Shown: positions 15,388 to 42,282 of the stretch, one piece after another
How positions within the stretch are numbered: position 1 is the first letter of the stretch
How the letters are laid out: the number at the start of each line of letters is the position of its first letter
From: Fluviicola sp.
GTDB lineage: Bacteria; Bacteroidota; Bacteroidia; Flavobacteriales_D; Crocinitomicaceae
DNA: 51,090 nucleotides
Assembly (NCBI GenBank): GCA_029866325.1
Contig: JARWZO010000005.1
Coordinates: 279,049-330,138, forward strand
Direction: 5' to 3'
Program-made: the position numbers and the translations under genes
Notes under the pieces: generated by a model
What the model saw: the letters and a program-made list of their open reading frames with translations, nothing else
Database searches by the model: none
Told to the model about the DNA's origin: nothing

Positions 15388-18300
15388 TCAGAAAAAAGCC
15401 TTCACTTCCATTCCACCTGCATGCACGGTTTTCGATCCTTCCGACTGGCGTCCGTTGTATTGAATCGACAACTGTAGATTTTTGGAAATAGTGCGCTGAT
15501 AACCGATGCTCCACACCAGATTCTTTCCTGCTTTGAGGGCTTCCAATAATTCAAACCCGAGTGGTGAATTGGCGTTTCCGTCAGAAGTAATTTGGATGAA
15601 ATTAAACTGACCTTGCAAACTTCCTTTTTGTGCCTGGTTGTACTTGGCAGTGAATCCGATATCGCTGACTTTAGCATATTCGCCACCAAATTCGGCGGCA
15701 TTGGTTTTGTCAGAAAACCGGCTTTCGATGCTAAAACGCAACGATGTATTCGGCTGAAATACAAGCGATGGTTTGATGATCCAATAATTTAACCGGTAAT
15801 TTCGACCGGTGGTATAATCAACCGATGAGGTTTTTAAACCTTGCTCAAACGAACTCAAAATACTCCATTCTTTCGAGATGTTCCAGCGACCGTTTACCTC
15901 ATGCGACTCATTGCTTTTCCCATCGTAACCTGTTGCTAACAGGGTTTTCGATTGCACGTTTTGATACGAATAATCGAAGCCAAACAACGAACTGGTGCGG
16001 TTGAAATAAAGCGTGTGCTTCATGTTACTGGAAGTGCTGATGAGGTCGGCATCATCGATACGGCCGTTGAACGGATTGTAAGCATTGAGATTGTCGAACG
16101 AACTGGTTTTGCGTTGAATCCGAAACCGTGATTGAGTAGAAAACCGCGCCATGAACAGTTTAATTCCCTGTTTATTGGCCCAAACGCGTTCCGGACGAAT
16201 AATGAGACTTTGGTTGTATTCGTTGCTATACGTATTGATGTAATCGTTACTAGGCGTAAAAACACGAATGTAACTTGCTTGATCGGCATAAGCGGCCAAT
16301 TCGAATTCGTTGAGATCTTTCACATTGTCGCCGTTGTAATCGATCCAAGTGTAAACTCCTTGACCGTCGTTGACTTTGATGTAAATAAACTCGCGTTTTT
16401 GTTCCAATCCGGCACCGATCTCGTAAAAAGTAGTCAGTGAAACAGCGCTTTTCCACAGTTTTATTTCGTGGTCAACCCGACCATTGGTGGTGTTTTCCGG
16501 TTTCTGAGAAATCAGGTTGGTGTCTAGGATTTCCAACGTTCGGTAATTCCCAACCAATACCAAGCGTTGATTTTTCAACGATTTTAAGGTCCATTCACCA
16601 CTGATGGTGCGTGCTTTGGCGACATTGGTGAGACGTGTACTGTCCGATTTTTTATCCAATCGTTCGCGGTAACTCAAGCGCAATTCACCCATGGTGGTGT
16701 CACCGAAAACCACATAGCCCTGATAATCAAAGAAGGAATAAGAATTCAACGCAAGCAACGAATCGCCGGTATTAAAACGGTTCCATTCTTGGTCGTCTTT
16801 GTAACCGATGCGTATTTTTTTACCAAGTTCCTGCGAAACATCCAGTTTGTGTCGAATGAACTGATTGTCATTAGCCGTTTTTGAACTCAAGGCACTGGCA
16901 TCCCATGTAACGCGCAAGCCTTTCTGTTTCCAGTTGGCGCCACTGTGCAAACGATATCCTGTAAAATCGGTCCCGATCTTAAATTGCTGTGCATTGAGCG
17001 AAACTTGTCCATACTTGATGTGTCCGAGTGCGGAAGAAAGTGTTGAATATACCTGATTTCCTTTGAATCCTTGATTCCGCGTATTCCAGTCACGGTCAAA
17101 TTCAACCGAACGGTATTGCTCAATGGGTTTGAAATACGGATCGAGCGCTTCCACTTCGGCTTTATTGGTCCATGACCATAGTGGAATACTATCACGACCA
17201 AACGGAAGCGTGTGTTCTACTTTCGAGCGGACGGAAAATCCTCTGTCATCGAAACGATCAAGGGTCGAAAACGTATTGAGATCATAAGTGCTCATTCCCA
17301 CCTCGGAAGTCACTTTTAAGCGATCATTAAAGCGATAGGTTCCACCGGCAGTAAATAATTGTTGTTGTTTCGGAGTAATGAGCAGTGAAACAGGAGCGTA
17401 ATCACCCTGTGAAATACCACCGACGGGTTCCACCCATTTGTAAACGCGACCCAGCGCATTGAATTTTTCAAACACATAATCGCCTTTTCCGGGGCCGACA
17501 AACGTAAAATTGACCTTGTACTTGGCCAGGATCGGATCAACGGAAACTACCAATACGCTGTCGTATCCAAGTGAATCGATGAGTTTATAGAGCACCAAGT
17601 TTTCACTGAAACCAACCGAATCGAGTACCAAACTTCTGGCGGCTTGTAAATCATCACCTATGGAAGAAAGCAGGAATTTTTGATCGGAAGTGAGGTTCTG
17701 CTGCAAGGGTTGGTTTTTGGCATCCTGCTCCGAATAAGCGTTGATCCACCAGTCGTACTTTTTGGTGGTCGCAGCGGTAGAAAACTGAAAGAGCGAACGG
17801 GCGTAATTCTGATCGGAATACTGAAATTCGACCACAATACGAATGTCTTTGGTAATGAGTTGTCTTGCGGTGAAGGTGAGTTCGGAAGTATTGTAATCGA
17901 TCACGTAATCGTATTCCTGACCGCGAGTGAGGAGTTTTCCATCGATGAATACGCGTTCCGTTCCCGAAAGCACCACAATGAAAGGTTCGTTTTCATTTCC
18001 ACGCAATCGATACGGACCTTGATTTCCCTCAACTCCCTGAATGATTTGCCGGTTGAATTTTCCTTTCGACAAGGCTCCGCTTACCTGTGTTTTGAGCGAT
18101 TTGTTTTTGTCTTTGATCCAATAATATTCGCCGGTGAGTCCTTGTCCGCGCTTTTTGTAAGTGAGGAAATAACCCTCGGGTTTGGAAATCCAGAAATCGC
18201 CGGCTGTGAGTTTGAACCGGTCGTTGAACAACTGAATAAATACCTGATCAAATTCCTGCAATTTATTGGTATTGCCTTCGGGCTGAATGGGTAAGTTATC

Positions 18301-18834
18301 GTCGGTTACCGAAGCCAACACTTGCAGATTGGGTGTTACATATCCGGAAAGTTCTAGATTGAGCGAAGAATTGACGGATAAATCTTGCCGGTTTCCGAAT
18401 GAGATTCCACGTGAAATACTTCCCGATTTTTGCAAGCCACCTGTTCCCAATAAATCGAGCGCATTATTGGTGGGTTCAATGAGAAATTTCTCACGATCGC
18501 CTTTTGAGATGTTATAAATGAGACTGGTATCGCGGCGAGATTCGGTGTAGGAGAAGCGCACGGGAATAATGCGATAAGCAACCGATAGTTCTTCCGGACA
18601 AGGAGATTTCAGTTCAATTGTGGCACTAGCAAAATCTACTGTATAGGCAGATTCGGGCAACAATTGTTCACCGCATTTGCAACTGATCGAACCCGGATAA
18701 ATGGAAAAAGTATCCAAAGCGATAGAGATAGTATTGGCCGCAACGGATTTTTGGCGCTGTGTACTTAACTGCGCGAAGCTGTTCAACGAAACGAACAGCG
18801 AAAAAAAAACCAACCAAATACAAATCCTCGGCAT
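15388..18834 (-). CDS. Large predicted outer-membrane beta-barrel protein
   Basis: The 1148-aa product has a signal peptide (ends N-S-F-A-Q). An N-terminal domain of about 130 residues includes YTVDFASATIELKSPCP, then comes a conserved block with RGISFGNRQDLSVNSSLNLE and DNLPIQPEGNTNKLQEFDQV. A second conserved block reads EGNQGPYRLRGNENEPFIVV and GTERVFIDGKLL. Long runs of alternating hydrophobic residues continue to a C-terminal phenylalanine, a usual end for outer-membrane barrels. I recognise the block order from a family widespread in Bacteroidota and never given a clear function. It is not long enough to be SprA, although a few motifs are reminiscent. The gene is alone on its strand, 240 bases upstream of the sigma factor. 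Confidence 0.7.
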   Translation of the reverse strand: MPRICIWLVFFSLFVSLNSFAQLSTQRQKSVAANTISIALDTFSIYPGSISCKCGEQLLPESAYTVDFASATIELKSPCPEELSVAYRIIPVRFSYTESRRDTSLIYNISKGDREKFLIEPTNNALDLLGTGGLQKSGSISRGISFGNRQDLSVNSSLNLELSGYVTPNLQVLASVTDDNLPIQPEGNTNKLQEFDQVFIQLFNDRFKLTAGDFWISKPEGYFLTYKKRGQGLTGEYYWIKDKNKSLKTQVSGALSKGKFNRQIIQGVEGNQGPYRLRGNENEPFIVVLSGTERVFIDGKLLTRGQEYDYVIDYNTSELTFTARQLITKDIRIVVEFQYSDQNYARSLFQFSTAATTKKYDWWINAYSEQDAKNQPLQQNLTSDQKFLLSSIGDDLQAARSLVLDSVGFSENLVLYKLIDSLGYDSVLVVSVDPILAKYKVNFTFVGPGKGDYVFEKFNALGRVYKWVEPVGGISQGDYAPVSLLITPKQQQLFTAGGTYRFNDRLKVTSEVGMSTYDLNTFSTLDRFDDRGFSVRSKVEHTLPFGRDSIPLWSWTNKAEVEALDPYFKPIEQYRSVEFDRDWNTRNQGFKGNQVYSTLSSALGHIKYGQVSLNAQQFKIGTDFTGYRLHSGANWKQKGLRVTWDASALSSKTANDNQFIRHKLDVSQELGKKIRIGYKDDQEWNRFNTGDSLLALNSYSFFDYQGYVVFGDTTMGELRLSYRERLDKKSDSTRLTNVAKARTISGEWTLKSLKNQRLVLVGNYRTLEILDTNLISQKPENTTNGRVDHEIKLWKSAVSLTTFYEIGAGLEQKREFIYIKVNDGQGVYTWIDYNGDNVKDLNEFELAAYADQASYIRVFTPSNDYINTYSNEYNQSLIIRPERVWANKQGIKLFMARFSTQSRFRIQRKTSSFDNLNAYNPFNGRIDDADLISTSSNMKHTLYFNRTSSLFGFDYSYQNVQSKTLLATGYDGKSNESHEVNGRWNISKEWSILSSFEQGLKTSSVDYTTGRNYRLNYWIIKPSLVFQPNTSLRFSIESRFSDKTNAAEFGGEYAKVSDIGFTAKYNQAQKGSLQGQFNFIQITSDGNANSPLGFELLEALKAGKNLVWSIGYQRTISKNLQLSIQYNGRQSEGSKTVHAGGMEVKAFF

Positions 18835-21132: not shown

Positions 21133-23091
21133 CTATCCGACTTGTTGGGCATCCTGCTGGGTATCTGAAGATGAAACACCAACCAATTGCAACACTTTCG
21201 TTCTAATAGATTGTGTATCGAATCCACACTGGATGTGCAATTCTTCCACAGTTCCATGATGAATGTAGGTATCCGGAATGCCCAATCGAACCACTTTAGC
21301 ACTGTAATTATGGTCGGCCATAAATTCAATTACCGCAGAACCGAAACCGCCCATAATAGCACCGTCTTCGATGGTAATGATTTTATCGAATTTCGAGAAT
21401 ACTTCGTGCAGCATCAATTCATCAATCGGTTTGGCGAAACGCATATCGTAGTGAGCTGCCGAAACGCCATCTTCTTTGAGTAAAGCAATGGCATCTTGCG
21501 CAAAATTCCCAACGTGACCGATGGTAAGAATTGCTGCGTCTTCACCGCTTGTTAATTTACGACCTGTGCCCACTTTCATGGCTTTCATGGCTGTTTTCCA
21601 TTCGGTCATTACACCGTTTCCACGCGGGTAACGAATGGAAAAAGGACCGTGATTTTCAGCCTGAGCGGTAAACATCATGTTGCGCAATTCTGCTTCGTTC
21701 ATCGGTGCAGCCACAATCATATTCGGAATGGAGCGCATGTATGCAATATCGTAAGCACCATGATGCGTAGCACCGTCGGCGCCAACCAAACCACCACGGT
21801 CAAGACAGAAAACTACTTGCAGGTTTTGCAATGCAACATCATGAATTACCTGATCATAAGCGCGTTGCATAAACGACGAATAAATATTGCAGTACGGAAT
21901 CAATCCTTGAGTTGCCAGTCCGGCCGAGAAAGTCACAGCGTGTTGCTCGGCAATTCCTACGTCGAATGCACGATCGGGCATGGCTTCCATCATAAAGGTG
22001 AGTGAGCAACCCGAAGGCATAGCAGGTGTCACACCCATGATTTTATCATTATTTTCGGCCAATTCAACAATGGTATGACCGAAAACATCCTGATATTTGG
22101 GCGGTTGCGGCGATTTTGGCACCACTTTGATGATTTCACCCGTGTCTTTATTAAACACCCCCGGAGCGTGCCATTTGGTTGGATTTCCCTCTTCGGAAAA
22201 CTTGTAACCCGCACCTTTTCGGGTAATGCAATGCAAGATTTTTGGGCCTGGGATATCTTTTAAATCTTCCAACACTTTGGCCAAACCGATGGCATCGTGC
22301 CCGTCGACCGGACCGAAATAACGGAAGTTCAACGATTCGAAGAAATTACTTTGTTTCAGCAACGAACCTTTCAGCGCATTGGAGATTTTAGAAGCGATGG
22401 TTTGTGCATCAGGACCGAATTTGCTCACTTTCCCCAACAATTTCCAAACTTCGTCTTTTACCTTGTTGTAGGTATGCGAAGTAGTAATGTCGGTAAGGTA
22501 TTCTTTCAGCGCACCCACGTTCGGGTCGATGGACATACAATTGTCGTTGAGTACCACTAGCAGGTTGGCGTCTTTTTCAAATCCGGCGTGGTTTAATCCT
22601 TCAAATGCCAAACCGGCTGTCATGGCTCCATCACCGATTACAGCAATGTGATGACGGTCTTTTTCGCCTTTGTAACGATTGGCAACTGCCATTCCCAAAG
22701 CTGCGGAAATAGAGGTAGAAGAGTGCCCTACACCGAAGGTATCGTATTCGCTTTCGCTGCGTTTCGGGAAACCCGAGATGCCGCCTTTGGTGCGGTTGGT
22801 ATGAAACAATTCACGGCGACCGGTAAGGATTTTGTGTCCGTATGCCTGATGGCCGACATCCCACACCAACTGGTCGTAAGGCGTGTTGAATACGTAATGC
22901 AAGGCAACGGTCAATTCCACCACACCGAGACTGGCACCGAAGTGCGAATTCCCGATTTCGGAAATGACATCTACAATATACTGGCGTAATTCGTCGGAAA
23001 CCTGTGGTAGGTCATCGATACTCACCTGATCGCGAAGATCTTGCGGGATATGGATGTTTTCGAGTAATGGGCCAGCTTTGTATGGATGCAT
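21133..23091 (-). CDS. dxs: 1-deoxy-D-xylulose-5-phosphate synthase
   Basis: This 652-aa thiamine diphosphate enzyme joins pyruvate and glyceraldehyde 3-phosphate to make DXP, the first step of the MEP isoprenoid pathway and a precursor of thiamine and pyridoxal. Visible marks include the opening block S-H-F-G-A-S-L-G-V-V-E-L-T, VWDVGHQAYGHKILTGRR, the ThDP block GDGAMTAGLAFEGLNHAG, GPVDGHD, and IAEQHAVTFSAGLA, followed by the transketolase C-terminal domain. The frame extends 13 residues to an ATG at 23130, but a consensus promoter (-33 TTTG, -7 TAACTTTG) lies inside that extension, so the ATG at 23091 (MHPYKAGPLLENI) is chosen. The last 20 or so residues (SSSDTQQDAQQVG) form a loose tail. 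Confidence 0.97.
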   Translation of the reverse strand: MHPYKAGPLLENIHIPQDLRDQVSIDDLPQVSDELRQYIVDVISEIGNSHFGASLGVVELTVALHYVFNTPYDQLVWDVGHQAYGHKILTGRRELFHTNRTKGGISGFPKRSESEYDTFGVGHSSTSISAALGMAVANRYKGEKDRHHIAVIGDGAMTAGLAFEGLNHAGFEKDANLLVVLNDNCMSIDPNVGALKEYLTDITTSHTYNKVKDEVWKLLGKVSKFGPDAQTIASKISNALKGSLLKQSNFFESLNFRYFGPVDGHDAIGLAKVLEDLKDIPGPKILHCITRKGAGYKFSEEGNPTKWHAPGVFNKDTGEIIKVVPKSPQPPKYQDVFGHTIVELAENNDKIMGVTPAMPSGCSLTFMMEAMPDRAFDVGIAEQHAVTFSAGLATQGLIPYCNIYSSFMQRAYDQVIHDVALQNLQVVFCLDRGGLVGADGATHHGAYDIAYMRSIPNMIVAAPMNEAELRNMMFTAQAENHGPFSIRYPRGNGVMTEWKTAMKAMKVGTGRKLTSGEDAAILTIGHVGNFAQDAIALLKEDGVSAAHYDMRFAKPIDELMLHEVFSKFDKIITIEDGAIMGGFGSAVIEFMADHNYSAKVVRLGIPDTYIHHGTVEELHIQCGFDTQSIRTKVLQLVGVSSSDTQQDAQQVG

Positions 23092-23109
23092 AAACACGTA
23101 TTTAACAAG

Positions 23110-23141
23110 CAAAGTTACGTCTTCGCTCATTGGATAACAAA
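23110..23141 (-). promoter_or_regulatory. Predicted dxs promoter
   Basis: On the minus strand, TTTG (23138-23141) is followed after 20 bases by TAACTTTG (23110-23117), a full match to the Bacteroidota -33/-7 consensus (TTTG, 19-20 bases, TAnnTTTG). Transcription would start near 23103, about 12 bases before the ATG at 23091. Confidence 0.75.
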
Positions 23142-23337: not shown

Positions 23338-25398
23338 ATGCCAACTACTCCATTACCAGTTATTTCTACCAGCGGAAAAGCATTTGTCGACACAAGTGGC
23401 AATCGTTTTGTTGTGCGCGGTGTGGCCCTTTCAGCAAGTGGTGTTTCCGCCCTTATGATCGATGACATTCTAGCAGATGATCACAATCCATTGATGGTCA
23501 ATACCATTATTCCAAAACTTGTGTCATTAAATGTCAATTGTATTCGTGTTTATCAGGTTAATCCAGCGAATAGCCATGCGCTATCCATGGCGAGTCTTGA
23601 AGCAAGTGGTATTTATGTAATGGTTGGCCTGGCGACATCAACCTATTCGGTAAAACAAATGACGGGCGAATACAGTTATGGAACTTTCCTTCACGCGGCT
23701 GGAATAATAGACGAGTTTTACGCGTATAACAACACCCTTTGTTTTTCGGTGGGTAATGAAGTAGAGTTTCCCGGACAACAAGCGAGTAACCTGAATAGTG
23801 TAGCACCGGCTGGAACAGCAGCGTCAACAATCGTTACAGATACAATTGCGCTTGAAATTGCAGTTGCACAAGCTATGAAATCATTTGCGCGCGACGTTAA
23901 GGCTTACATAAAAACCAAGAATCCCCAAAGTACCATTCCAGTTGGTGTAGCTATGCAGGACGGCCCTCAAACATCTTGGGAAAGTGGCAATCCGAACGCT
24001 TATCAATTAGGTATTATTGGTACAGATATAATTGCACAGTATTACGCTTCGGGAGCTGTTGAAGAGCGTATGGACTTCATCGGAATCAATTCCTATAGGT
24101 ATCAAAGCGGTACTACCGGTACAAATGCTTATGACACACTTGGTGCTGAATGTAAACCACTACCAGTTCCTGTTTTTTTAACTGAAACTGGCGCACTTGC
24201 TACTCCGCGCACCTGGGCTATAGTACCACAGATGTATACTGACACGAATTTGTATCCTCAACTTTCCGGACAAGTAGCCTTTCAACTATTGGAAGAAGGT
24301 TCCGGTTATGGTTTGTATGATGTGACCAATAGTTCAGGAACGATTACATTAACAGCCAGCACAAATGGTGGTGCTACTGCATTAGGTACTCAATATGGTT
24401 TACCCGTTCCAAGTCCTTTAAATTCTGCAAGTACAACGCCATCTGGCACAACCGTTGCCCCAACAAGCTTTGGTCAATCGCCAATTGTTAATGTAACATG
24501 GCCTGATTCTTTATTAGCGCCTTATACCTATCAAAGTGCTGACGCGTCCATCACCATTGAAAATTATGCGTTAAACGAAGTTCAAATCACCCAAATGGGA
24601 ACGGTAATGGGTACTATAGCAGCGGCTACAAACACAACTACACCAACCTCTCAAACAATGAATGTCTATTCTGGTCATGCAATTTCAATTCAAGCTCAAA
24701 ACCCTAGTGATAGCACTTGGGATGCATTGTGTGGGGTGGCTGCAGCAAATGTGGTAGCTGGAATAACCGTTCAAACGAATGTGTCTTGGGGTGTTTATTC
24801 AGGATGTAACGTTGATCTTCCAACGAGCAATCCCATTTCAGTTACCGTGAATAATTATGCATCAGTTGAAATAAATGTTGTGGTTGGCGGTACAGTTGTA
24901 GCTACTGTGGATGCTCCTGCTGCGAATAAATCCTACGCTCAACAAGTCGTTTCGCTTACAAGTATTGGTGTATTAAACCTGCAAAATTCAGCTTATGACG
25001 AAATCTGCTCGGTGTCTGCACTTCTTATTCAAGATAATATCACGATAGAAAATAACGTGTCTTGGGGCAGTGGTTGCTGTAACTTACCTGTTCCTAACAA
25101 TAATACAATACCCGTAACGGTTGAGAATTACAATACTCAACAAGCCATGTGCCTGATTCAAAATGGAGCTCAAATAGGCAGTAGTTTACCCGTGGCAACA
25201 TCGAGTACCGTGCCTAGTAGCACTGTTATTCAATTAAGTGTTGTGAATGACTTATACATACAATACGAAAACACCGAAAATCAATGGATCACAGCTTGTA
25301 TGGTTCCTGCCATTGAGATCAGTGCATGGATGACGATAGCGAATAATGTTGCTGCTTACGGAAACAACATGTGTGTAATCAGTTACTCAGGTGGTTAA
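23338..25398 (+). CDS. GH72-like glucanosyltransferase homologue with three C-terminal repeats
   Basis: The 686-aa product begins with a barrel of about 360 residues that follows the fungal Gas/Gel (GH72) pattern closely: NRFVVRGVALS, VNCIRVYQVNP, LEASGIYVMVGLAT, IIDEFYAYNNTLCFSVGNEV with Glu141 as likely acid/base, IPVGVAMQD, MDFIGINSYRY, and FLTETGA with Glu283 as likely nucleophile. GH72 enzymes cut and rejoin beta-1,3-glucan. After a P/S/T linker come three repeats of about 95 residues (about 400-495, 497-588, 589-686), each opening I-T/P-V-T-V/I-E/N-N-Y and holding a cysteine-bearing segment such as NVSWGSGCCNLP. No signal peptide or T9SS tail is seen. An open frame back to 23086 runs over the dxs start and is not protein-like. 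Substrate in this organism is unknown. Confidence 0.75.
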   Translation: MPTTPLPVISTSGKAFVDTSGNRFVVRGVALSASGVSALMIDDILADDHNPLMVNTIIPKLVSLNVNCIRVYQVNPANSHALSMASLEASGIYVMVGLATSTYSVKQMTGEYSYGTFLHAAGIIDEFYAYNNTLCFSVGNEVEFPGQQASNLNSVAPAGTAASTIVTDTIALEIAVAQAMKSFARDVKAYIKTKNPQSTIPVGVAMQDGPQTSWESGNPNAYQLGIIGTDIIAQYYASGAVEERMDFIGINSYRYQSGTTGTNAYDTLGAECKPLPVPVFLTETGALATPRTWAIVPQMYTDTNLYPQLSGQVAFQLLEEGSGYGLYDVTNSSGTITLTASTNGGATALGTQYGLPVPSPLNSASTTPSGTTVAPTSFGQSPIVNVTWPDSLLAPYTYQSADASITIENYALNEVQITQMGTVMGTIAAATNTTTPTSQTMNVYSGHAISIQAQNPSDSTWDALCGVAAANVVAGITVQTNVSWGVYSGCNVDLPTSNPISVTVNNYASVEINVVVGGTVVATVDAPAANKSYAQQVVSLTSIGVLNLQNSAYDEICSVSALLIQDNITIENNVSWGSGCCNLPVPNNNTIPVTVENYNTQQAMCLIQNGAQIGSSLPVATSSTVPSSTVIQLSVVNDLYIQYENTENQWITACMVPAIEISAWMTIANNVAAYGNNMCVISYSGG

Positions 25399-30803: not shown

Positions 30804-32102
30804 TCATTCATCCATTTCGGAATGCGTCTTCGTTTCGCGCATCAGTACATATACCAATAACGAAATCATTATGCATCCGGTGATATACCAATAAAACCAC
30901 GTTTCATGTCCACTGTCTTTGAGCCAAAGCGCAACATATTCGGCACTTCCGCCAAAAATAGCGACAGTAATAGCATAAGGAAAGCCAACACCCAGAGCAC
31001 GTATTTCGGTCGGAAATAATTCTGCTTTCACGACAGCGTTAATGCTGGTGTAACCACTTACGATAATCAGTGCGGCTAATAAAAGGAAAAAAGCCGTCCA
31101 AACAGAAGTGGTATGGCTGAGCGAGGTGAGCAAGGGAACAGTGAACAGCGTTCCTAAAATCCCAAAACCAATCAATAAGGGTTTTCTTCCGATCTTATCA
31201 GAAAGCGCTCCAAAAAAAGGTTGCAGACAAGCAAAAATCAGAAGGCTGAAAAAGGATATGAGTGTAGATGTTCCTTTCGATAAATGAACCGTATTCACCA
31301 AAAACTTCTGCATATAGGTGGTGTATGTGTAAAAGGCCAGCGTTCCACCTAATGTAAGCCCAATCACGATCAAAACGGCACGCGGATGTTTTAATAAGGC
31401 ACGAAGTGTTCCTTTTCGGGAAGCTTTTTCAGCTCTATGAGCATCAAATGCAGAGGTTTCTTCCATCGATTTACGCAAATACAACGCAACCAATGATAGC
31501 ATCGCTCCGAAAATAAACGGTAAGCGCCAACCCCACGATTCCAGATCGCTTTCACTGAGAAAACGCTGCAGCAACAGCTGAATTCCGAGGGCGATCAACT
31601 GACCACCGATGAGCGTTACGTATTGAAAACTGGCGTAAAATCCACGTCTGTTCGGCGTTGCCATTTCACTTAGATAGGTTGCCGAAACACCGTATTCACC
31701 TCCAACACTCAGACCCTGGATCATCCGCGCTATAAGCAAAATGATCGGAGCCGCAATTCCGATTGAGTGGTAAGTTGGCGTGATGGCAATGAGCATCGAT
31801 CCGAATGACATGACCAAAACCGATAAAGTCATAGCCCGTTTTCGCCCCAATTTATCAGCAATACTTCCAAAGAGCCAACCACCGATGGGACGCATTAGAA
31901 ATCCCACAGCAAAAATCCCGGCTGTATTCATTAACTGAGCTGTAGCATTACTTTCTGGAAAAAACGAATGCGAAAAATAGAGCGCAAATGCTGAATAAGC
32001 ATACCAATCATACCATTCCACCAAATTCCCGATTGAGCCGCTGATGATAGCTTTCAGTTGTTTTCCCGAGACGCGTTCTTTTTGTTGATTCATCGATTCC
32101 AA
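30804..32102 (-). CDS. MFS transporter, metabolite:H+ symporter (KgtP/ProP-like)
   Basis: The 432-aa product has about 12 membrane segments and the MHS-family hallmarks: NLVEWYDWYAYSAFALYF in helix 1, FLMRPIGGWLFGSIADKLGR between helices 2 and 3, and QGLSVGGEYGVSATYLSE in helix 5. This group imports compounds such as 2-oxoglutarate, shikimate, proline or betaine with protons across the inner membrane. The substrate cannot be told from sequence. Start could be the first ATG (32102) or the one three codons in (M-N-Q-Q-K). It converges with the AraC gene and may belong functionally to the aldehyde-reductase cluster, though it has its own upstream region. Confidence 0.9.
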   Translation of the reverse strand: MESMNQQKERVSGKQLKAIISGSIGNLVEWYDWYAYSAFALYFSHSFFPESNATAQLMNTAGIFAVGFLMRPIGGWLFGSIADKLGRKRAMTLSVLVMSFGSMLIAITPTYHSIGIAAPIILLIARMIQGLSVGGEYGVSATYLSEMATPNRRGFYASFQYVTLIGGQLIALGIQLLLQRFLSESDLESWGWRLPFIFGAMLSLVALYLRKSMEETSAFDAHRAEKASRKGTLRALLKHPRAVLIVIGLTLGGTLAFYTYTTYMQKFLVNTVHLSKGTSTLISFFSLLIFACLQPFFGALSDKIGRKPLLIGFGILGTLFTVPLLTSLSHTTSVWTAFFLLLAALIIVSGYTSINAVVKAELFPTEIRALGVGFPYAITVAIFGGSAEYVALWLKDSGHETWFYWYITGCIMISLLVYVLMRETKTHSEMDE

Positions 32103-35294: not shown

Positions 35295-35331
35295 GAAGAA
35301 ACCGTTCTGCGTTAGGTGGGGCGGTTTTTTT
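35295..35331 (+). terminator. Terminator after gcvP
   Basis: AAACCG pairs with CGGTTT across a 17-base loop, ending in seven T's. Almost the same sequence, beginning GAAGAAACCGTTCTGCGT, recurs at 40429. Confidence 0.7.
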
Positions 35332-35347
35332 GTGGAGTGAATTTGTG

Positions 35348-35355
35348 TATTTTTG
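35348..35355 (+). promoter_or_regulatory. -7 box of the DUF5122-type surface protein
   Basis: TATTTTTG matches TAnnTTTG, 19 bases before the ATG at 35375, supporting that start over upstream non-ATG starts. Confidence 0.55.
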
Positions 35356-35374
35356 TGGTTGTAAAACCTTATCA

Positions 35375-38302
35375 ATGATGAATCGCTTAATCGTTTTAAT
35401 TACAATTTGTTTTTTTAGTAATCAGTTTTCAGCTCAAACTGTAGAAAGTAACTGGTTACAACCAAATGGAGAAGTTAGAGCAATAATTAAGGATTCGGTA
35501 AATGATGTTGTGTATATTGGGGGAGACTTTAGTTTCGTTGGTGCTAACGAACCATTTGGCACCCAAATTAACGCATTAACTGCAGAAGTAAGTTTTCAGG
35601 TTGCAAATCCGAACGGTGCTGTTTTAACATCTGTGTCTGATGGTATAGGTGGTTGGTACATAGGTGGCTCATTTACCCAAGTTGGTGATAGCGCAAGAAA
35701 TAATGTAGCTCATATAAATCAATTTGGAGAAGTTACACCTTGGAATCCGAACCCGAATGGTGGCGTTAATTCTATTGTTGTTTATGGTTCAAAAGTGTTT
35801 TTAGGTGGTGATTTTACATCTGTTGGTCCAGTAGGAAGGCCATATTTTGCCGCTATTAATACTTCAAGTGGCTTGTTATTGCCTTGGGTTTTGGAATTGA
35901 ATTCTGCAGTTTCTGTAATGAAAGTAAAGGATAATTACCTTTATTTGGGAGGGTTGTTTACAAATATTGATGGACAATCGCGAAATTGTTTGGCACAAGT
36001 AGATCTTTTGATTGAGCAAGTTACTTCTTGGAACCCAGCTCCTAATTCCAATGTGAAAAGCCTTGAAGTTTCAGGAACGTCTGTATATGTGGGAGGCTAC
36101 TTTTCAACAATTGGAGGGCAAAGTAGAAGTAAAATTGCGTCAGTTGACCTTGTTACTGGAATAGCAACATCATGGAATCCGGTTTCAAATGGTGTGGTAG
36201 ATGTGATTTTAATTTCAGGAAACATTGCATATCTAGGGGGTAGTTTCACTAGTTTAGGAGGTCAATCACGGAATAATATTGCCGCAATTGATCTTGTTAC
36301 AGGTTTGGCGACATCTTGGAACCCAAGCGTAGTTAATACTGACGCATCTTGTTTTGTGAGCACACTTGGAATAATTGGACAAAGACTGTTTATAGGTGGT
36401 CAATTTGATTCTGTTGGAATGCAACAAAGGGTAAACTTGGCTGCAATCGACATCTCTTCTGGAAGTGTTGATATTTGGAAGCCTAATGCAAGCGATTATA
36501 TTAGGACATTAAGCATTTATAATTCGGAGATATATGTTGGCGGGGATTTCATTTCGATCAGCGGAGAATCAAGAAATAACTTAGCAGCGTTGGATCCGAT
36601 TTCAGGCCAACTAAGACCTTGGAATCCAAATGCAAACGGGCCAGTATCAACACTATTATTATCTGAGGATTTAATTTATATCGGAGGAGCCTTTACGACT
36701 ATTGGGGTTCAAAATCGAAATTGTTTAGCAGCCTTGGATACTATTTCGGGAAATGTGACCACATGGAATCCGAATGCAGATTCTGAAGTTAAAGCACTTT
36801 CTTTGAATAATAACAAACTATATGTAGGAGGTTACTTTTCTTACGTCGGAGGACAAAATCGCCAGTTTATTGCAGCATTAGATATCAATACAGGTGTAGC
36901 AACTTCTTGGAATCCTGTAATCAACAATGGGCTAATTGTGTCGTCAGTAGTTGCAACTGAAGAAGTGGTTTATATCGGCGGTGCTTTTTCTACCGTTGGC
37001 GGTTTAACGCGGAATAATATTGCGGCTTTGGATGGGGTAACCGGCGTGCCAACCTCATGGAATCCTAATTCTGTCGGAGAGGTTTTTTCTATGCTCGCTA
37101 TTGACTCAATTCTTTACGTTGGGGGTACCTTTTTTAGTGTCGGCGGGCAACCCTCTATTGGTGGATATCCGCGAAATAGGATTGCAGCCCTTCACTTAAG
37201 TACTGGCTTGGCAAATGAGTGGAATCCCAATCCCAATGGTTGGGTTAGGGCAATGGCTACAAGTGGAAATAATATATATGTTGTGGGTGATTTTTCTATG
37301 ATTAGTGGTGTGCAGAGGAGAAATGGTGCAGAAATAGACCGTATAACTGCTTCTATTGAGGATTGGAATCCACACACTAATGGCACTAATTTAACCATTG
37401 CATTGGATCAAACTAATATTTATTTAGGAGGAATATTTACTGAGGTAGAAGGAAATCAGCGATATAACTTTGCGGTATTTAATAAGAATTCTTTGTCATA
37501 TTCATTGGATGTCAATACGTTTGTAACACCTTCTCCTGTTGATTCTTGTGTAGGATTGGTAGCAGTAACAACTATTGGTAATCCGAATTTTGTTCTTGAC
37601 ATTGATAATAGTTCTGTTGTTCAAATATCTTCAGGCTACTCAATAGTCAATGATTTATGTGTTGGAGTTCATTCACTATTCATAATGGATGATAACAATG
37701 ATACTTTAACGACAATTTTCGTCATCCCTGTAGACTCCAACTACATCTTCAACAACCCTTTCATTGATTCTATTGCTGTTGACTCACTCGGAGCAACCAT
37801 CGAAGATTGCGACATTTACTACAACAGCATCGACACCGCTTTCATCGATTCAATCTTCGCAAACGGAAATACGGTAACCGTTATTTGGAATATTGTCGAC
37901 TCCAACGGCTCCAATTTTGATACCTCAAGCTATGTATTGAACAACGGAAATGGGGTTTATTACTTGCAATTAAGCGTTTTTTGCCCAACAAAAGCTCTGG
38001 GAGAATATTTTACTGTCACGGAAGCGGTTTATCTTGAAGGTGGTTATCTTTCGATTGAGGATCCAATACAATCGGAAAATCTCTTCGAACTCTTTCCCAA
38101 TCCCACCAACGATCTCGTAACCATACGTTTTGAATTTCCAAAAGCGGATTTGGTGATGTATGACGCTCAAGGAAAACACATTCAAACTCAAACAATCCTT
38201 TCCGGTGATTCCATTTCATTGGCACATCTTGAAACCGGTGTTTATTTCTTCGAACTCACAACCGAACAAGGAAAAACCGTGAAGCGGGTGGTGAAGCAGT
38301 AA
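35375..38302 (+). CDS. T9SS-sorted delta-60 (DUF5122) beta-propeller surface protein
   Basis: The 975-aa product has a signal peptide (ends N-Q-F-S-A-Q) and about a dozen repeats of roughly 50 residues with the pattern Y-V/I-G-G-x-F-x-x-I/V-G-G-Q-x-R-x-x-I-A-A-I/L-D...G-x-A-T-S-W-N-P. This is the delta-60/DUF5122 repeat, predicted to form beta-propellers. A shorter region (about residues 715-895) of different composition follows, then a T9SS type A sorting domain from about 900 (ELFPNPTNDLVTIRF to FELTTEQGKTVKRVVKQ). The protein should be secreted by the type IX system and displayed on the surface; binding target unknown. It opens a run of four T9SS cargo genes. Confidence 0.85.
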   Translation: MMNRLIVLITICFFSNQFSAQTVESNWLQPNGEVRAIIKDSVNDVVYIGGDFSFVGANEPFGTQINALTAEVSFQVANPNGAVLTSVSDGIGGWYIGGSFTQVGDSARNNVAHINQFGEVTPWNPNPNGGVNSIVVYGSKVFLGGDFTSVGPVGRPYFAAINTSSGLLLPWVLELNSAVSVMKVKDNYLYLGGLFTNIDGQSRNCLAQVDLLIEQVTSWNPAPNSNVKSLEVSGTSVYVGGYFSTIGGQSRSKIASVDLVTGIATSWNPVSNGVVDVILISGNIAYLGGSFTSLGGQSRNNIAAIDLVTGLATSWNPSVVNTDASCFVSTLGIIGQRLFIGGQFDSVGMQQRVNLAAIDISSGSVDIWKPNASDYIRTLSIYNSEIYVGGDFISISGESRNNLAALDPISGQLRPWNPNANGPVSTLLLSEDLIYIGGAFTTIGVQNRNCLAALDTISGNVTTWNPNADSEVKALSLNNNKLYVGGYFSYVGGQNRQFIAALDINTGVATSWNPVINNGLIVSSVVATEEVVYIGGAFSTVGGLTRNNIAALDGVTGVPTSWNPNSVGEVFSMLAIDSILYVGGTFFSVGGQPSIGGYPRNRIAALHLSTGLANEWNPNPNGWVRAMATSGNNIYVVGDFSMISGVQRRNGAEIDRITASIEDWNPHTNGTNLTIALDQTNIYLGGIFTEVEGNQRYNFAVFNKNSLSYSLDVNTFVTPSPVDSCVGLVAVTTIGNPNFVLDIDNSSVVQISSGYSIVNDLCVGVHSLFIMDDNNDTLTTIFVIPVDSNYIFNNPFIDSIAVDSLGATIEDCDIYYNSIDTAFIDSIFANGNTVTVIWNIVDSNGSNFDTSSYVLNNGNGVYYLQLSVFCPTKALGEYFTVTEAVYLEGGYLSIEDPIQSENLFELFPNPTNDLVTIRFEFPKADLVMYDAQGKHIQTQTILSGDSISLAHLETGVYFFELTTEQGKTVKRVVKQ

Positions 38303-38317
38303 TCGTTTAGGAACAAA

Positions 38318-38345
38318 GATCGTTCGAAACCCCGATCGGATTTTC
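38318..38345 (+). terminator. Weak hairpin terminator
   Basis: GATCG (38318-38322) pairs with CGATC (38333-38337) before GGATTTTC. The stem is short and the T run poor, so read-through into the next gene is possible. Confidence 0.35.
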
Positions 38346-38421
38346 GGTGGTGAAAATGAATTATTTTTTTAATCGCGTTAAGAAAGTAATTTTATACCAT
38401 CTACAAAAGTTAGATTCTACT

Positions 38422-40407
38422 ATGAAACGAATTTTTCAAGTTCTGTCGGGCATTATGCTCTCTTTTAGCGCGTTGGCACAATTCCAAGGAAACGCGCTCC
38501 AATTTGATGGTGCAAACGACAACGTATCGGCTACCTTACCAGCGTTGTTCAATAATTTGTCTACAACCGATTTTACCATGGAAGCGTGGGTTTATCCGCA
38601 GGGAGCGGTCTTTAGCCGAATCATTTACGCACAAGGTAGCACCACCAATTTTGCCACGATGAGCACCGGTGGCACAAACAATATTTATTTCTATGTGGTA
38701 GAAAATGGCACAAATTATAGTATCGCTACTTCTGTCAACCTGCCTTCCAATACCTGGACACATGTTACTGCCCGCTGGACTACTGCTACCAATTCTGCAG
38801 AAGTGTTTTACAATGGTGTGTTACAAGCAGGCATAAACGGTGGAAGTTCTTCTACCGGATCACTAAACAATCTGAGCATCGGTACAAGACCCGGCGGAGC
38901 ACAGTATTTCCCCGGAACGTTGGATGAGGTGAGAATTTGGAGCGAAGCCCGTTCGAACTGCGAAATACAAGCCAACTACAACCGATCAATGACCGGAACG
39001 GAACCCAACCTTGTGGTGAATTACAATTTTAATCAAGGTGTGGCTGCAGGCAACAATGCAGGAGTAAACACATTACCCGATCTTGTTGCCGGAAATAACG
39101 GTACATTGAACAACTTCACACTCAATGGAACAACTTCCAATTGGATTGCCTCTACAGCAACAATCAATGCTTCGAGTGAAGTGGCTGCTGTTACATCAAC
39201 TACCTCAATCAGTGCTTGTTCAAGTTATTTGTGGACTCCAACGAATCAAACCTACACTACCTCAGGACAATACATGGATACGCTCACTACGGTGGGAGGT
39301 TGCGATTCTATTGTTGTGCTTAATTTAACGATCAACCAACCGACTTCTTCAAGCATTTCAATAGCAACTTGTGATACATACATGTGGTCTGAAAACGGTA
39401 TGAATTACACCACATCAGGAACTTACTACGATACATTGGTCAATGCAATGGGTTGCGATTCCATCATCGCACTCAACCTCACCATCAATTTACCAACCAC
39501 TTCAAGTTTAACCGCAAGTGCTTGTGAAAGCTATTTGTGGGTAGAAAACGGAATGACCTATACTACTTCAGGTAGCTACAATGATACGATCCCGAATGCA
39601 GCAGGTTGTGATTCCATCATCACACTTAACCTTACGATCAATCAATCAACATCTTCGAATTTGACGGAAATTGCTTGCGGTAGTTATTCTTGGGCGCAGA
39701 ACGGAGTATCTTATATGGTATCAGGTAGTTACAACGATACCATTCCGAATGCAAATGGTTGCGACTCGATCATCACGCTCAATTTAACGGTGAATCCGAT
39801 TACGTCTTCAAGCGAAACAGTTAGCGCTTGCGATAGCTATACTTGGAACGCTAATGGAGTGACTTATACAACTTCCGGTCAACATTCTCATGCTTTCCTA
39901 AGTGTAGCGGGCTGTGATTCCATGGTTACACTCAACCTTACAGTTGTACCGACACCAACCGCCAATGCCACGGATGACGGTTTGGGAACGCTTACAGGAA
40001 GCGGTGGGAACACAGTTCAATGGATTAATTGTGGAACGAATACGGCCATTGCAGGCGCAACTTCTACCACCTTTTCGCCTATTGTTAACGGAAGCTACGC
40101 AATTGTGGTAGTAAACGGAAATTGTGACGATACATCCAATTGTGTGGTAGTAAACTATATCGGGTTGAATGAAAACCAAACAATCGATGCGGATATGTAC
40201 CCAAATCCAACCACAAGTGAAGTGACGATTATTTTTGAAGGGTTATCAGCTGTAATAAGCATTCGCGAAGCACACGGAAAAATAGTCCATACACAAAGTG
40301 TCCAAAGCGGTGAAGCAATTTCATTGGAAAAAATGCAATCCGGCGTTTATTTCTTTGAACTCACAACCGAACTAGGGAAAACGGTGAAACGGGTGGTGAA
40401 ACAGTAA
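38422..40407 (+). CDS. T9SS-sorted LamG protein with five CDSI repeats
   Basis: The 661-aa product has a signal peptide (ends F-S-A-L-A-Q), then a LamG/concanavalin-like domain (about 22-235) with ALQFDGANDNVS, DFTMEAWVYPQG, WTHVTARW and LDEVRIWSEARSNCEIQANY. Next are five tandem repeats of about 51 residues starting near 261, 312, 362, 413 and 465, each of the form A-C-x-S-Y-x-W...Y-x-x-S-G-x-Y-x-D-T-x-x-x-x-x-G-C-D-S-I-x-x-L-N-L-T-I. A T9SS type A sorting domain closes the protein (about 588-661, from MYPNPTTSEV). LamG domains often bind carbohydrate. The frame continues upstream to 38347, but the signal peptide fixes the start at 38422. Its repeats and tail are nearly the same as in the next gene. 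Confidence 0.87.
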   Translation: MKRIFQVLSGIMLSFSALAQFQGNALQFDGANDNVSATLPALFNNLSTTDFTMEAWVYPQGAVFSRIIYAQGSTTNFATMSTGGTNNIYFYVVENGTNYSIATSVNLPSNTWTHVTARWTTATNSAEVFYNGVLQAGINGGSSSTGSLNNLSIGTRPGGAQYFPGTLDEVRIWSEARSNCEIQANYNRSMTGTEPNLVVNYNFNQGVAAGNNAGVNTLPDLVAGNNGTLNNFTLNGTTSNWIASTATINASSEVAAVTSTTSISACSSYLWTPTNQTYTTSGQYMDTLTTVGGCDSIVVLNLTINQPTSSSISIATCDTYMWSENGMNYTTSGTYYDTLVNAMGCDSIIALNLTINLPTTSSLTASACESYLWVENGMTYTTSGSYNDTIPNAAGCDSIITLNLTINQSTSSNLTEIACGSYSWAQNGVSYMVSGSYNDTIPNANGCDSIITLNLTVNPITSSSETVSACDSYTWNANGVTYTTSGQHSHAFLSVAGCDSMVTLNLTVVPTPTANATDDGLGTLTGSGGNTVQWINCGTNTAIAGATSTTFSPIVNGSYAIVVVNGNCDDTSNCVVVNYIGLNENQTIDADMYPNPTTSEVTIIFEGLSAVISIREAHGKIVHTQSVQSGEAISLEKMQSGVYFFELTTELGKTVKRVVKQ

Positions 40408-40428
40408 AAATGGTTTAGGAATAGAAAT

Positions 40429-40466
40429 GAAGAAACCGTTCTGCGTAATGTGGAGCGGTTTTTTTT
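40429..40466 (+). terminator. Terminator after the LamG gene
   Basis: AAACCG pairs with CGGTTT and is followed by T's. It is a near copy of the terminator after gcvP. Confidence 0.7.
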
Positions 40467-40468
40467 CG

Positions 40469-40497
40469 TTGAGCAAGGTTGTAATTATTTACCTTTG
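40469..40497 (+). promoter_or_regulatory. Predicted promoter of the LTD-domain gene
   Basis: TTG (40469-40471) is followed after 18 bases by TACCTTTG (40490-40497), matching the Bacteroidota consensus. It lies directly behind the preceding terminator, so this gene has its own transcript. Confidence 0.6.
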
Positions 40498-40533
40498 TTC
40501 ATCACAAGCATCATGAAATTAACAGTCTTATTT

Positions 40534-42177
40534 ATGAAACAATTAATACTAATCTTTAGCAGCGTAATTTTTATAACGTTTACAAGTTCTGCTCAAGTTT
40601 GCAACCTGTTTTTTTCGGAGTACCTCGAGGGCGCTTCAAATAACAAAGCAATTGAGTTTTACAATCCGTTAAACGTAACCGTGAATCTTACCGATTACGC
40701 GTTATACCGTTACAATAATGGTTCTCCAACACCTACCGATTCACTATTCCCACAAGGAACACTTGCTCCGGGAGCTGTTTTCGTGGCTGGAAATCCGTCG
40801 GCTGTAGCAGGAATACTTGCCGTTTCGGATACCTTGCATACCATTACTTTCTTTAATGGAGACGATGCAATGGAGTTGCGTTACAGACCCACAAACACCA
40901 CACTTGATATCATCGGAATTATTGGCGTTGACCCGGGAGTAAACTGGGCTGTTGGATCTGGAGCAACCAGTGAATTTACGTTGGTGCGCATGTTTTCTCA
41001 CACAGATGGTGAACTGAATTGGGCAGTATCAGCCACCGAATGGGATGTATATCCTCAAAACACAACTACTTTTCTCGGCTCTCATTCAGGTGCTCCTTGC
41101 TGTTTAGCGAATAATTCCAGCCTTTCAGCAAGTGCTTGTTCAAGCTATACATGGGCTGAGAATGGAACGACTTATACAACATCGGGCGCTTACAACGATA
41201 CATTAACAAACGTAAGCGGTTGCGATTCTATCATTACGCTCAATCTTACAATTAATCTTCCCACATCATCTAATTTATCAGCAACTGCTTGTAACAGTTA
41301 TACGTGGGCAGAAAATGGAGTGACTTATTTCAGTGCAGGAAATTACAACGATACGCTCACTAATGTTGCAGGTTGTGATTCCATCATAACGCTCAACCTT
41401 ACGATCAATCAACCGACATCTTCGAGTTTGACGGAAATTGCTTGCGGTAGTTATTCCTGGGCGCAGAACGGAGTTTCCTATTTTGTTTCAGGAAGTTACA
41501 ACGATACCATTCCGAATGCAAATGGTTGCGACTCGATTATCACGCTCAATTTAACGGTCAATCCGATTACGTCTTCAAGCGAAACAGTTAGCGCCTGTGA
41601 TAGCTATACCTGGAGCGCCAATGGAGTGACTTATACAACTTCCGGTCAACATTCTCAACCTTTTCTCAGTGCAGCTGGATGTGATTCCATGGTTACAATC
41701 AATCTTACAATTATTCAAACACCAACCGCCAATGCCACGGATGACGGTTTGGGAACGCTAACAGGAAGCGGTGGAAGTCCGGTTCAATGGATCGATTGTG
41801 GAACGAATACAGCCATTGCCGGTGCAACTTCTAACACCTTTTCACCAACGGTTAACGGAAGCTACGCAATTGTGGTAGGAAACGGAAATGGTTGTTCCGA
41901 TACTTCAGCTTGTTTGATTGTTGATTACATTGGATTGTCTGAAAATGCCACCATCAATGCAGTTATTTACCCGAATCCAACGACAAACGAAGTAAAAATC
42001 AATTTTACTGAATCATCAGCAACGTTGATTATTCGTGATGCTCAAGGAAAAATTCTTCAAATACAAACGATTGAAAACAGTGCAGCCATTTCGCTCGTAA
42101 ATGTTCAAACGGGAATTTATTTCTTCGAACTCACAACCGAACAAGGAAAAGTCGTAAAACGAGTAGTGAAAAACTAA
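40534..42177 (+). CDS. T9SS-sorted lamin-tail (LTD) protein with four CDSI repeats
   Basis: The 547-aa product has a signal peptide (ends F-T-S-S-A-Q), then a lamin-tail-like domain (about 22-180): NLFFSEYLEGASNNKAIEFY, TLAPGAVFVAGNPSA, FFNGDDAMELRY. Four tandem repeats of about 51 residues follow (A-C-x-S-Y-x-W...G-C-D-S-I-I-T-L-N-L-T-I), then the same type of connector and T9SS sorting domain as in the preceding gene. LTD domains occur in many exported bacterial proteins and are thought to bind or anchor. An ATG at 40513 is an alternative start that lengthens the signal peptide by seven residues. The repeat part is almost identical at the DNA level to that of the upstream paralogue. Confidence 0.87.
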   Translation: MKQLILIFSSVIFITFTSSAQVCNLFFSEYLEGASNNKAIEFYNPLNVTVNLTDYALYRYNNGSPTPTDSLFPQGTLAPGAVFVAGNPSAVAGILAVSDTLHTITFFNGDDAMELRYRPTNTTLDIIGIIGVDPGVNWAVGSGATSEFTLVRMFSHTDGELNWAVSATEWDVYPQNTTTFLGSHSGAPCCLANNSSLSASACSSYTWAENGTTYTTSGAYNDTLTNVSGCDSIITLNLTINLPTSSNLSATACNSYTWAENGVTYFSAGNYNDTLTNVAGCDSIITLNLTINQPTSSSLTEIACGSYSWAQNGVSYFVSGSYNDTIPNANGCDSIITLNLTVNPITSSSETVSACDSYTWSANGVTYTTSGQHSQPFLSAAGCDSMVTINLTIIQTPTANATDDGLGTLTGSGGSPVQWIDCGTNTAIAGATSNTFSPTVNGSYAIVVGNGNGCSDTSACLIVDYIGLSENATINAVIYPNPTTNEVKINFTESSATLIIRDAQGKILQIQTIENSAAISLVNVQTGIYFFELTTEQGKVVKRVVKN

Positions 42178-42196
42178 CAATATTATCCATATTGAT

Positions 42197-42232
42197 TCCC
42201 CTTGTGATTTCGATTGCAAGGGGAGTTTTTTT
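42197..42232 (+). terminator. Terminator after the LTD gene
   Basis: TCCCCTTG (42197-42204) pairs exactly with CAAGGGGA (42217-42224), followed after one G by seven T's. Confidence 0.9.
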
Positions 42233-42282
42233 GAAAAAGCAACCATCTTAATTTTTGTACCGTCTCTAAGTCAAATTCAGAC

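Follow-up and report, generated by a model that had tools for sequence, protein, structure and literature searches.

How a gene resembling those of the fungal Gas/Gel/Phr enzymes comes to lie in a genome of Fluviicola sp., and what its product might do there, is the question raised by positions 23338..25398 (+ strand) of a 51,090-nucleotide stretch of DNA (assembly GCA_029866325.1, contig JARWZO010000005.1, positions 279,049 to 330,138), hereafter the window. An earlier note, which covered the N-terminal half of the protein only, had assigned its first 360 or so residues to glycoside hydrolase family 72 (GH72). This assignment holds: the protein belongs to a bacterial branch of GH72, with both catalytic glutamates in place. 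Furthermore, its C-terminal half consists of three modules of an undescribed kind, and its gene is rare, patchy and spread across distantly related bacteria.

A bacterial branch of GH72

The gene runs from the ATG at 23338 to its stop codon and encodes 686 residues. Its features are as follows, the bit scores of the modules coming from a hidden Markov model (HMM) built on rows of other loci.

23338..25398, + strand: whole gene (686 aa), apparently leaderless, a GH72 domain followed by three C-terminal modules
23338..24417, + strand: GH72 catalytic domain and first linker residues (residues 1-360); PF03198, 135 bits; Gas2/Gel4 by phmmer, Foldseek and VIA-align
23758..23760, + strand: E141 codon, predicted acid/base, aligned with Gas2 E176
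24184..24186, + strand: E283 codon, predicted nucleophile, aligned with Gas2 E275
24280..24282, + strand: F315 codon, aligned with Gas2 Y307, third tyrosine of the fungal triad
24541..24819, + strand: C-terminal module 1 (residues 402-494), 86.3 bits; model pLDDT 91.3
24826..25089, + strand: C-terminal module 2 (residues 497-584), 49.5 bits
25099..25383, + strand: C-terminal module 3 (residues 588-682), 44.5 bits

The HMM search proposed in the earlier note gives PF03198 (Glyco_hydro_72) as the sole Pfam match of the whole protein (hmmscan, E up to 1), with 135.1 bits and E 4.2e-39, far over the cut-off of 25.9. This match spans both halves of the profile, the GH72 domain covering approximately the first 345 residues. 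For the predicted barrel fold, a model of modest confidence, the nearest solved structures are the fungal Gas2 and Gel4 (Foldseek, VIA-align). The earlier note had envisaged that another family of the GH-A clan might match best, whereas GH72 ranks first in every comparison: with Foldseek it reaches E 3.1e-15, against E 2.1e-9 and 9% identity for the runner-up, GH157, a family of bacterial enzymes acting on laminarin. The protein has no match in NCBIfam (E up to 1), and its best match in PHROGs (E 0.039) is a family of unknown function.

The comparisons below involve six loci: the window; L022 (identical to L003); L030 (which includes L004); L023, from Reichenbachiella faecimaris; L024, from a metagenome-assembled genome (MAG) of Alphaproteobacteria, cut at the contig end (126 aa); and L026, a relic on a plasmid of Candidatus Thiodictyon syntrophicum.

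Active site

The two glutamates singled out by the earlier note, Glu141 in GNEV and Glu283 in FLTETGA, align with Gas2 E176 and E275, described in a figure legend as the acid/base and the nucleophile of Gas2, respectively (PMC5753161). In chains of the Gas2 E176Q mutant, it is the glutamine that stands opposite E141. Their neighbours are also largely kept, Y72, Y253, N251 and N140 being the counterparts of Gas2 Y107, Y244, N242 and N175. The longer spacing between the glutamates, already taken by the earlier note to reveal an insertion, is borne out (142 residues in the window vs 99 in Gas2), and among bacterial copies, the four with both glutamates show spacings of 142 (window), 144, 142 and 127. 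For the model of Phr2, the catalytic glutamates are reported to lie 5 A apart (PMC5753161).

Some positions differ from the fungal enzymes. Two of the three tyrosines of the fungal triad are kept; the third (Phr2 Y292, equivalent to Gas2 Y307 by the numbering offset) is replaced by F315, and Phe is found in all five bacterial copies that cover this position. Single replacements of the triad tyrosines are reported to affect transglycosylation in Gel2 (PMC5753161). The arginine at Gas2 142 (Phr2 R125 by offset) is kept in L023 and in the Thiodictyon copy, as read by eye from the alignment; the window protein, L022, L030 and L024 have Gln instead, which would count against a full likeness to the fungal active site. 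The same source describes fungal GH72 enzymes as having regular cysteines that form the cluster I disulphides, along with the conserved tyrosine triad (PMC5753161). The catalytic domain studied here has few cysteines, and none of the five Gas2 cysteines has a counterpart in the printed alignment (window protein only, by eye).

C-terminal modules

The tail is made of three copies of a beta-sandwich module of about 90 residues. Such modules are present in all five GH72 loci whose C-terminus is available, and a pair of cysteines is invariant in the 10 modules compared. Neither the whole protein (Pfam, E up to 1) nor the tail (E up to 10) matches CBM43/X8. The module is an undescribed kind of add-on domain, as far as family searches go, and structure searches rule out no fold family for it.

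Among class genomes the module was found in 3 of 390 (query P0001), which are the three GH72 carriers, and among phylum genomes in one of 335 (alignment A4), the own genome of the window. Two of the 30 relatives matched when the window tail was the query (E up to 1); in the second, the match (E 0.75) contains a stop. In 72,556 plasmid records, the tail matched one record, holding two copies that are 99% alike, and the L030 protein matched this record, an Undibacterium plasmid, and the Thiodictyon plasmid. The Undibacterium sp. YM2 protein, WP_162044889.1, contains the module once, at 52% identity to module 1, but, unlike the window protein, has no GH72 domain; its C-terminal domain has a GH16-like motif and no Pfam assignment. 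Neighbours of the module gene on this plasmid, pUYM01 (L040:3135-13550), include genes for a protein of 1671 aa whose MACPF match is weak (E 0.025, below the cut-off), for a PLD-like protein and for a DUF2278 protein. The module gene recurs, with 99% identity, at 55774-56730 of the plasmid.

Start site and export

The mechanical open reading frame (ORF) begins upstream, at the ATG at 23086, and homologues favour 23338: the upstream stretch of the window, whose frame is open and contains this single ATG, has no counterpart in them. In L022, L023, L024 and L030, the ATG is only 6, 4, 5 and 3 codons, respectively, from the upstream in-frame stop, and this interval contains no alternative start codon (ATG, GTG or TTG). 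The first conserved residue, I9 in the window, is reached after 5-12 residues in the five copies. From start positions and upstream stops, five of the six loci thus look leaderless, and the window protein appears to have no recognisable Sec signal. The Thiodictyon copy is extended at its N-terminus by some 30 residues, which resemble a Sec signal by eye, the hydropathy maximum hardly separating it from the others. Export of the window protein, if it takes place at all, might follow a non-Sec route or result from lysis.

Distribution and transfer between phyla

Within the genus, GH72 of this kind was found in 1 of 14 genomes. Among 395 genomes of the class, 19 have PF03198 matches at E <= 0.001, of which 10 exceed the cut-off, and only three reach at least 50 bits (the own genome, G031 and G111); the other 16, partial matches of at most 34.1 bits, were dropped as presumed barrel relatives. 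In the phylum set (alignment A2), 3 of 395 genomes matched and only the own genome was kept, the two others giving 20.1 and 19.4 bits. A two-pattern scan of 84,980 species of the GTDB collection, to be taken as a lower bound because it used two patterns and missed G111, yielded four loci. Three of them are counted as members; the fourth, a Phycisphaeraceae locus (L025, ORF of 872 aa), is a distant relative with 27% identity over 139 residues. GH72 was found in one of 72,556 plasmid records. A phage origin was rejected: there was no match in 50,697 phage records, and of the 10 and 6 pattern matches given by viral contigs none was confirmed. The plasmid copy, on Thiodictyon pTs485 (L026:7902-8895), has lost most of the sequence between the glutamates and its frame is broken, with the module still readable.

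In a tree of the N-terminal alignment, a short one of eight sequences (the six loci and two fungal sequences), the window copy clusters with L022, L024 and L030 (SH-aLRT 99.4, UFBoot 100), the branching inside this cluster being weak (UFBoot 47-56). Alphaproteobacterial L024 therein groups with copies from Bacteroidota, and a tree constrained to keep both host phyla together is rejected (AU p 0.0008, one joint constraint, LG+G4). L024 lies on a MAG contig of 3.0 kb with a GC content of 0.54, whose other ORFs encode an AFG1-like ATPase and a porin. As the tree rejects grouping by host phylum, transfer of the gene between bacterial phyla is well supported, neither its direction nor a fungal donor being implied.

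Genomic context

The gene lies on contig C5 of a draft genome of 4.68 Mb in 32 contigs, flanked by a DXP synthase gene in divergent orientation (21133-23130, - strand) and by an opposite-strand ORF of 198 aa. Because bacterial genes flank it on both sides and its frame is intact, fungal contamination is very unlikely. Its GC content (0.426 vs 0.418 for the window) and its GC content at third codon positions (0.316, in a range of 0.234-0.478 for 17 other window ORFs) match window values and therefore give no sign of recent arrival.

None of the 20 other window ORFs scanned, from 11113 onwards, belongs to a second glycoside hydrolase family, and the proteins closest to sugar-related functions are a Laminin_G_3 protein (38347-40407) and an MFS transporter (30804-32102). 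GH16 (PF00722), the one laminarin family searched, has no match in the five carrier genomes, three of which are MAGs or lack completeness data, vs 6 of 14 control genomes; this absence speaks against a GH16-based laminarin degrader.

Other features were observed around these loci. The window also contains four successive large proteins, each with a C-terminal type IX secretion tail (Por_Secre_tail; 35330-44718, + strand), which helps to make the Bacteroidota setting sound. An 1148-aa ORF (15388-18834, - strand) gives nothing in Pfam at E up to 0.001. In Reichenbachiella, a small protein with no Pfam match adjoins the GH72 gene (L023:7075-7551, - strand), and, about 3.4 kb downstream, a protein with a phage tail collar domain is encoded (L023:12753-13391, + strand). 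In the genome of the window, a cluster of the eCIS type (a contractile injection system) with sheath, hub, spike tip and baseplate J proteins (Pfam) occupies C9:60000-79900, and another, with sheath and baseplate J, C6:354000-373900. On contig C12, a sheath-like protein of 527 aa (L035:9007-10590, - strand; PF04984, 33.2 bits) stands alone, no further injection gene having been spotted by eye in the 20 kb around it.

Proposed function and rival explanations

Most probably, the barrel domain cleaves beta-1,3-glucan through a retaining double displacement, E141 serving as acid/base and E283 as nucleophile, and would then hand the glycosyl unit on to either a second chain or water; Phe315 is predicted to shift this balance between transfer and hydrolysis. 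The CBM43 module of fungal GH72+ enzymes is thought to position the enzyme on glucan; by analogy, this is most likely also the role of the three beta-sandwich modules. As the modules keep a conserved pair of cysteines, possibly a disulphide, an oxidising place of work is suggested, and the target would be a glucan met outside the cell, whether fungal, oomycete or algal. Taken as a whole, this reading (a bacterial GH72 enzyme that cleaves beta-1,3-glucan, is positioned by its modules and works outside the cell) has about even chances of being right.

That Pfam merely labels as GH72 a barrel of another family (GH2, GH5 or similar) is scarcely credible: weak partial matches (26-34 bits) from seven further genomes of this class, and a match in the control genome of Thermotoga maritima, do pass the PF03198 cut-off, but the window protein scores 135 bits across both profile halves, GH72 comes first throughout and GH157 trails it with Foldseek. 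A decaying or inactive relic is very improbable for the window gene. It stands alone among the 14 genomes of its genus and the Thiodictyon copy is such a relic; however, its frame is open, both glutamates and most of their active-site neighbours are intact, and L022, L030 and L023, whose catalytic domains show 47-58% identity, retain both glutamates. An enzyme that stays in the cytosol and acts on the cell's own glucan or on imported oligosaccharides would agree with the scarcity of cysteines in the catalytic domain and the lack of a visible signal peptide in five of six loci, four with starts fixed by close upstream stops. The cysteine pair invariant in 10 of 10 modules and the Sec-like extension of the Thiodictyon copy argue against it, and we regard it as unlikely.

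The enzyme could also be cargo of a contractile injection system aimed at fungi, oomycetes or protists, as the genome of the window holds two such clusters and carrier genomes G111 and G758 also have sheath matches. Yet the GH72 gene lies on C5, apart from the clusters on C6 and C9, as far as a draft allows, and sheath matches in three of five carrier genomes vs 9 of 30 relatives show no clear association, the own genome counting in both sets and being the sole one above the cut-off. No sheath was found in Reichenbachiella, in the alphaproteobacterial MAG or on the two plasmids. Kyte-Doolittle sums over the first 50 residues of five copies (-13.3 to +17.7) are less hydrophilic than the value of -36.9 reported for Pdp1 (PMC11297309). 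Sheath distribution and N-terminal hydropathy weaken delivery of this kind, which is regarded as quite unlikely.

The preferred reading of a glucan-cleaving enzyme working outside the cell can be extended to a mobile family of leaderless GH72 enzymes, used by several phyla on eukaryotic beta-1,3-glucan walls, with a new glucan-binding module shared with a GH16-like enzyme, export by a non-Sec route and a Tyr-to-Phe change turning a wall builder towards cutting. All these parts holding together would be rather unlikely. Bacterial GH72 members, with their few cysteines, might be easier to make; they would show how the tyrosine triad balances transfer and hydrolysis. A new kind of glucan-binding module may come to light through them, as may a bacterial means of acting on eukaryotic walls.

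Comparison with known systems

A 2017 review presents GH72 enzymes as unique to the Kingdom Fungi (PMC5753161), although 14 GH72 proteins are reported from an oomycete, Phytophthora parasitica (PMC4176579). Lists of the families found in microbial metagenomes also include GH72 (PMC4636310, PMC10437873). In the open PMC literature, no title among the matches listed concerns bacterial GH72, nothing links GH72 with Reichenbachiella and nothing appears under 'bacterial GH72'; annotated but unstudied CAZy or UniProt entries may well exist.

The oomycete proteins belong to the same family and are likened to the window protein by family only, not by sequence. The luminal domain of human HGSNAT, also among the nearest known systems, has 12% identity and its likeness carries no functional claim. 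The closest known systems are the fungal Gas/Gel/Phr enzymes, with which the bacterial proteins share the GH72 barrel, both catalytic glutamates, two of the three triad tyrosines and the active-site asparagines. They differ from them by the absence of a visible signal peptide, by Phe in place of the third Tyr, by 28-45 more residues between the glutamates than in Gas2, by the lack of the Gas2 cysteines in the window protein and by beta-sandwich modules where the fungal enzymes have CBM43/X8 or a low-complexity tail.
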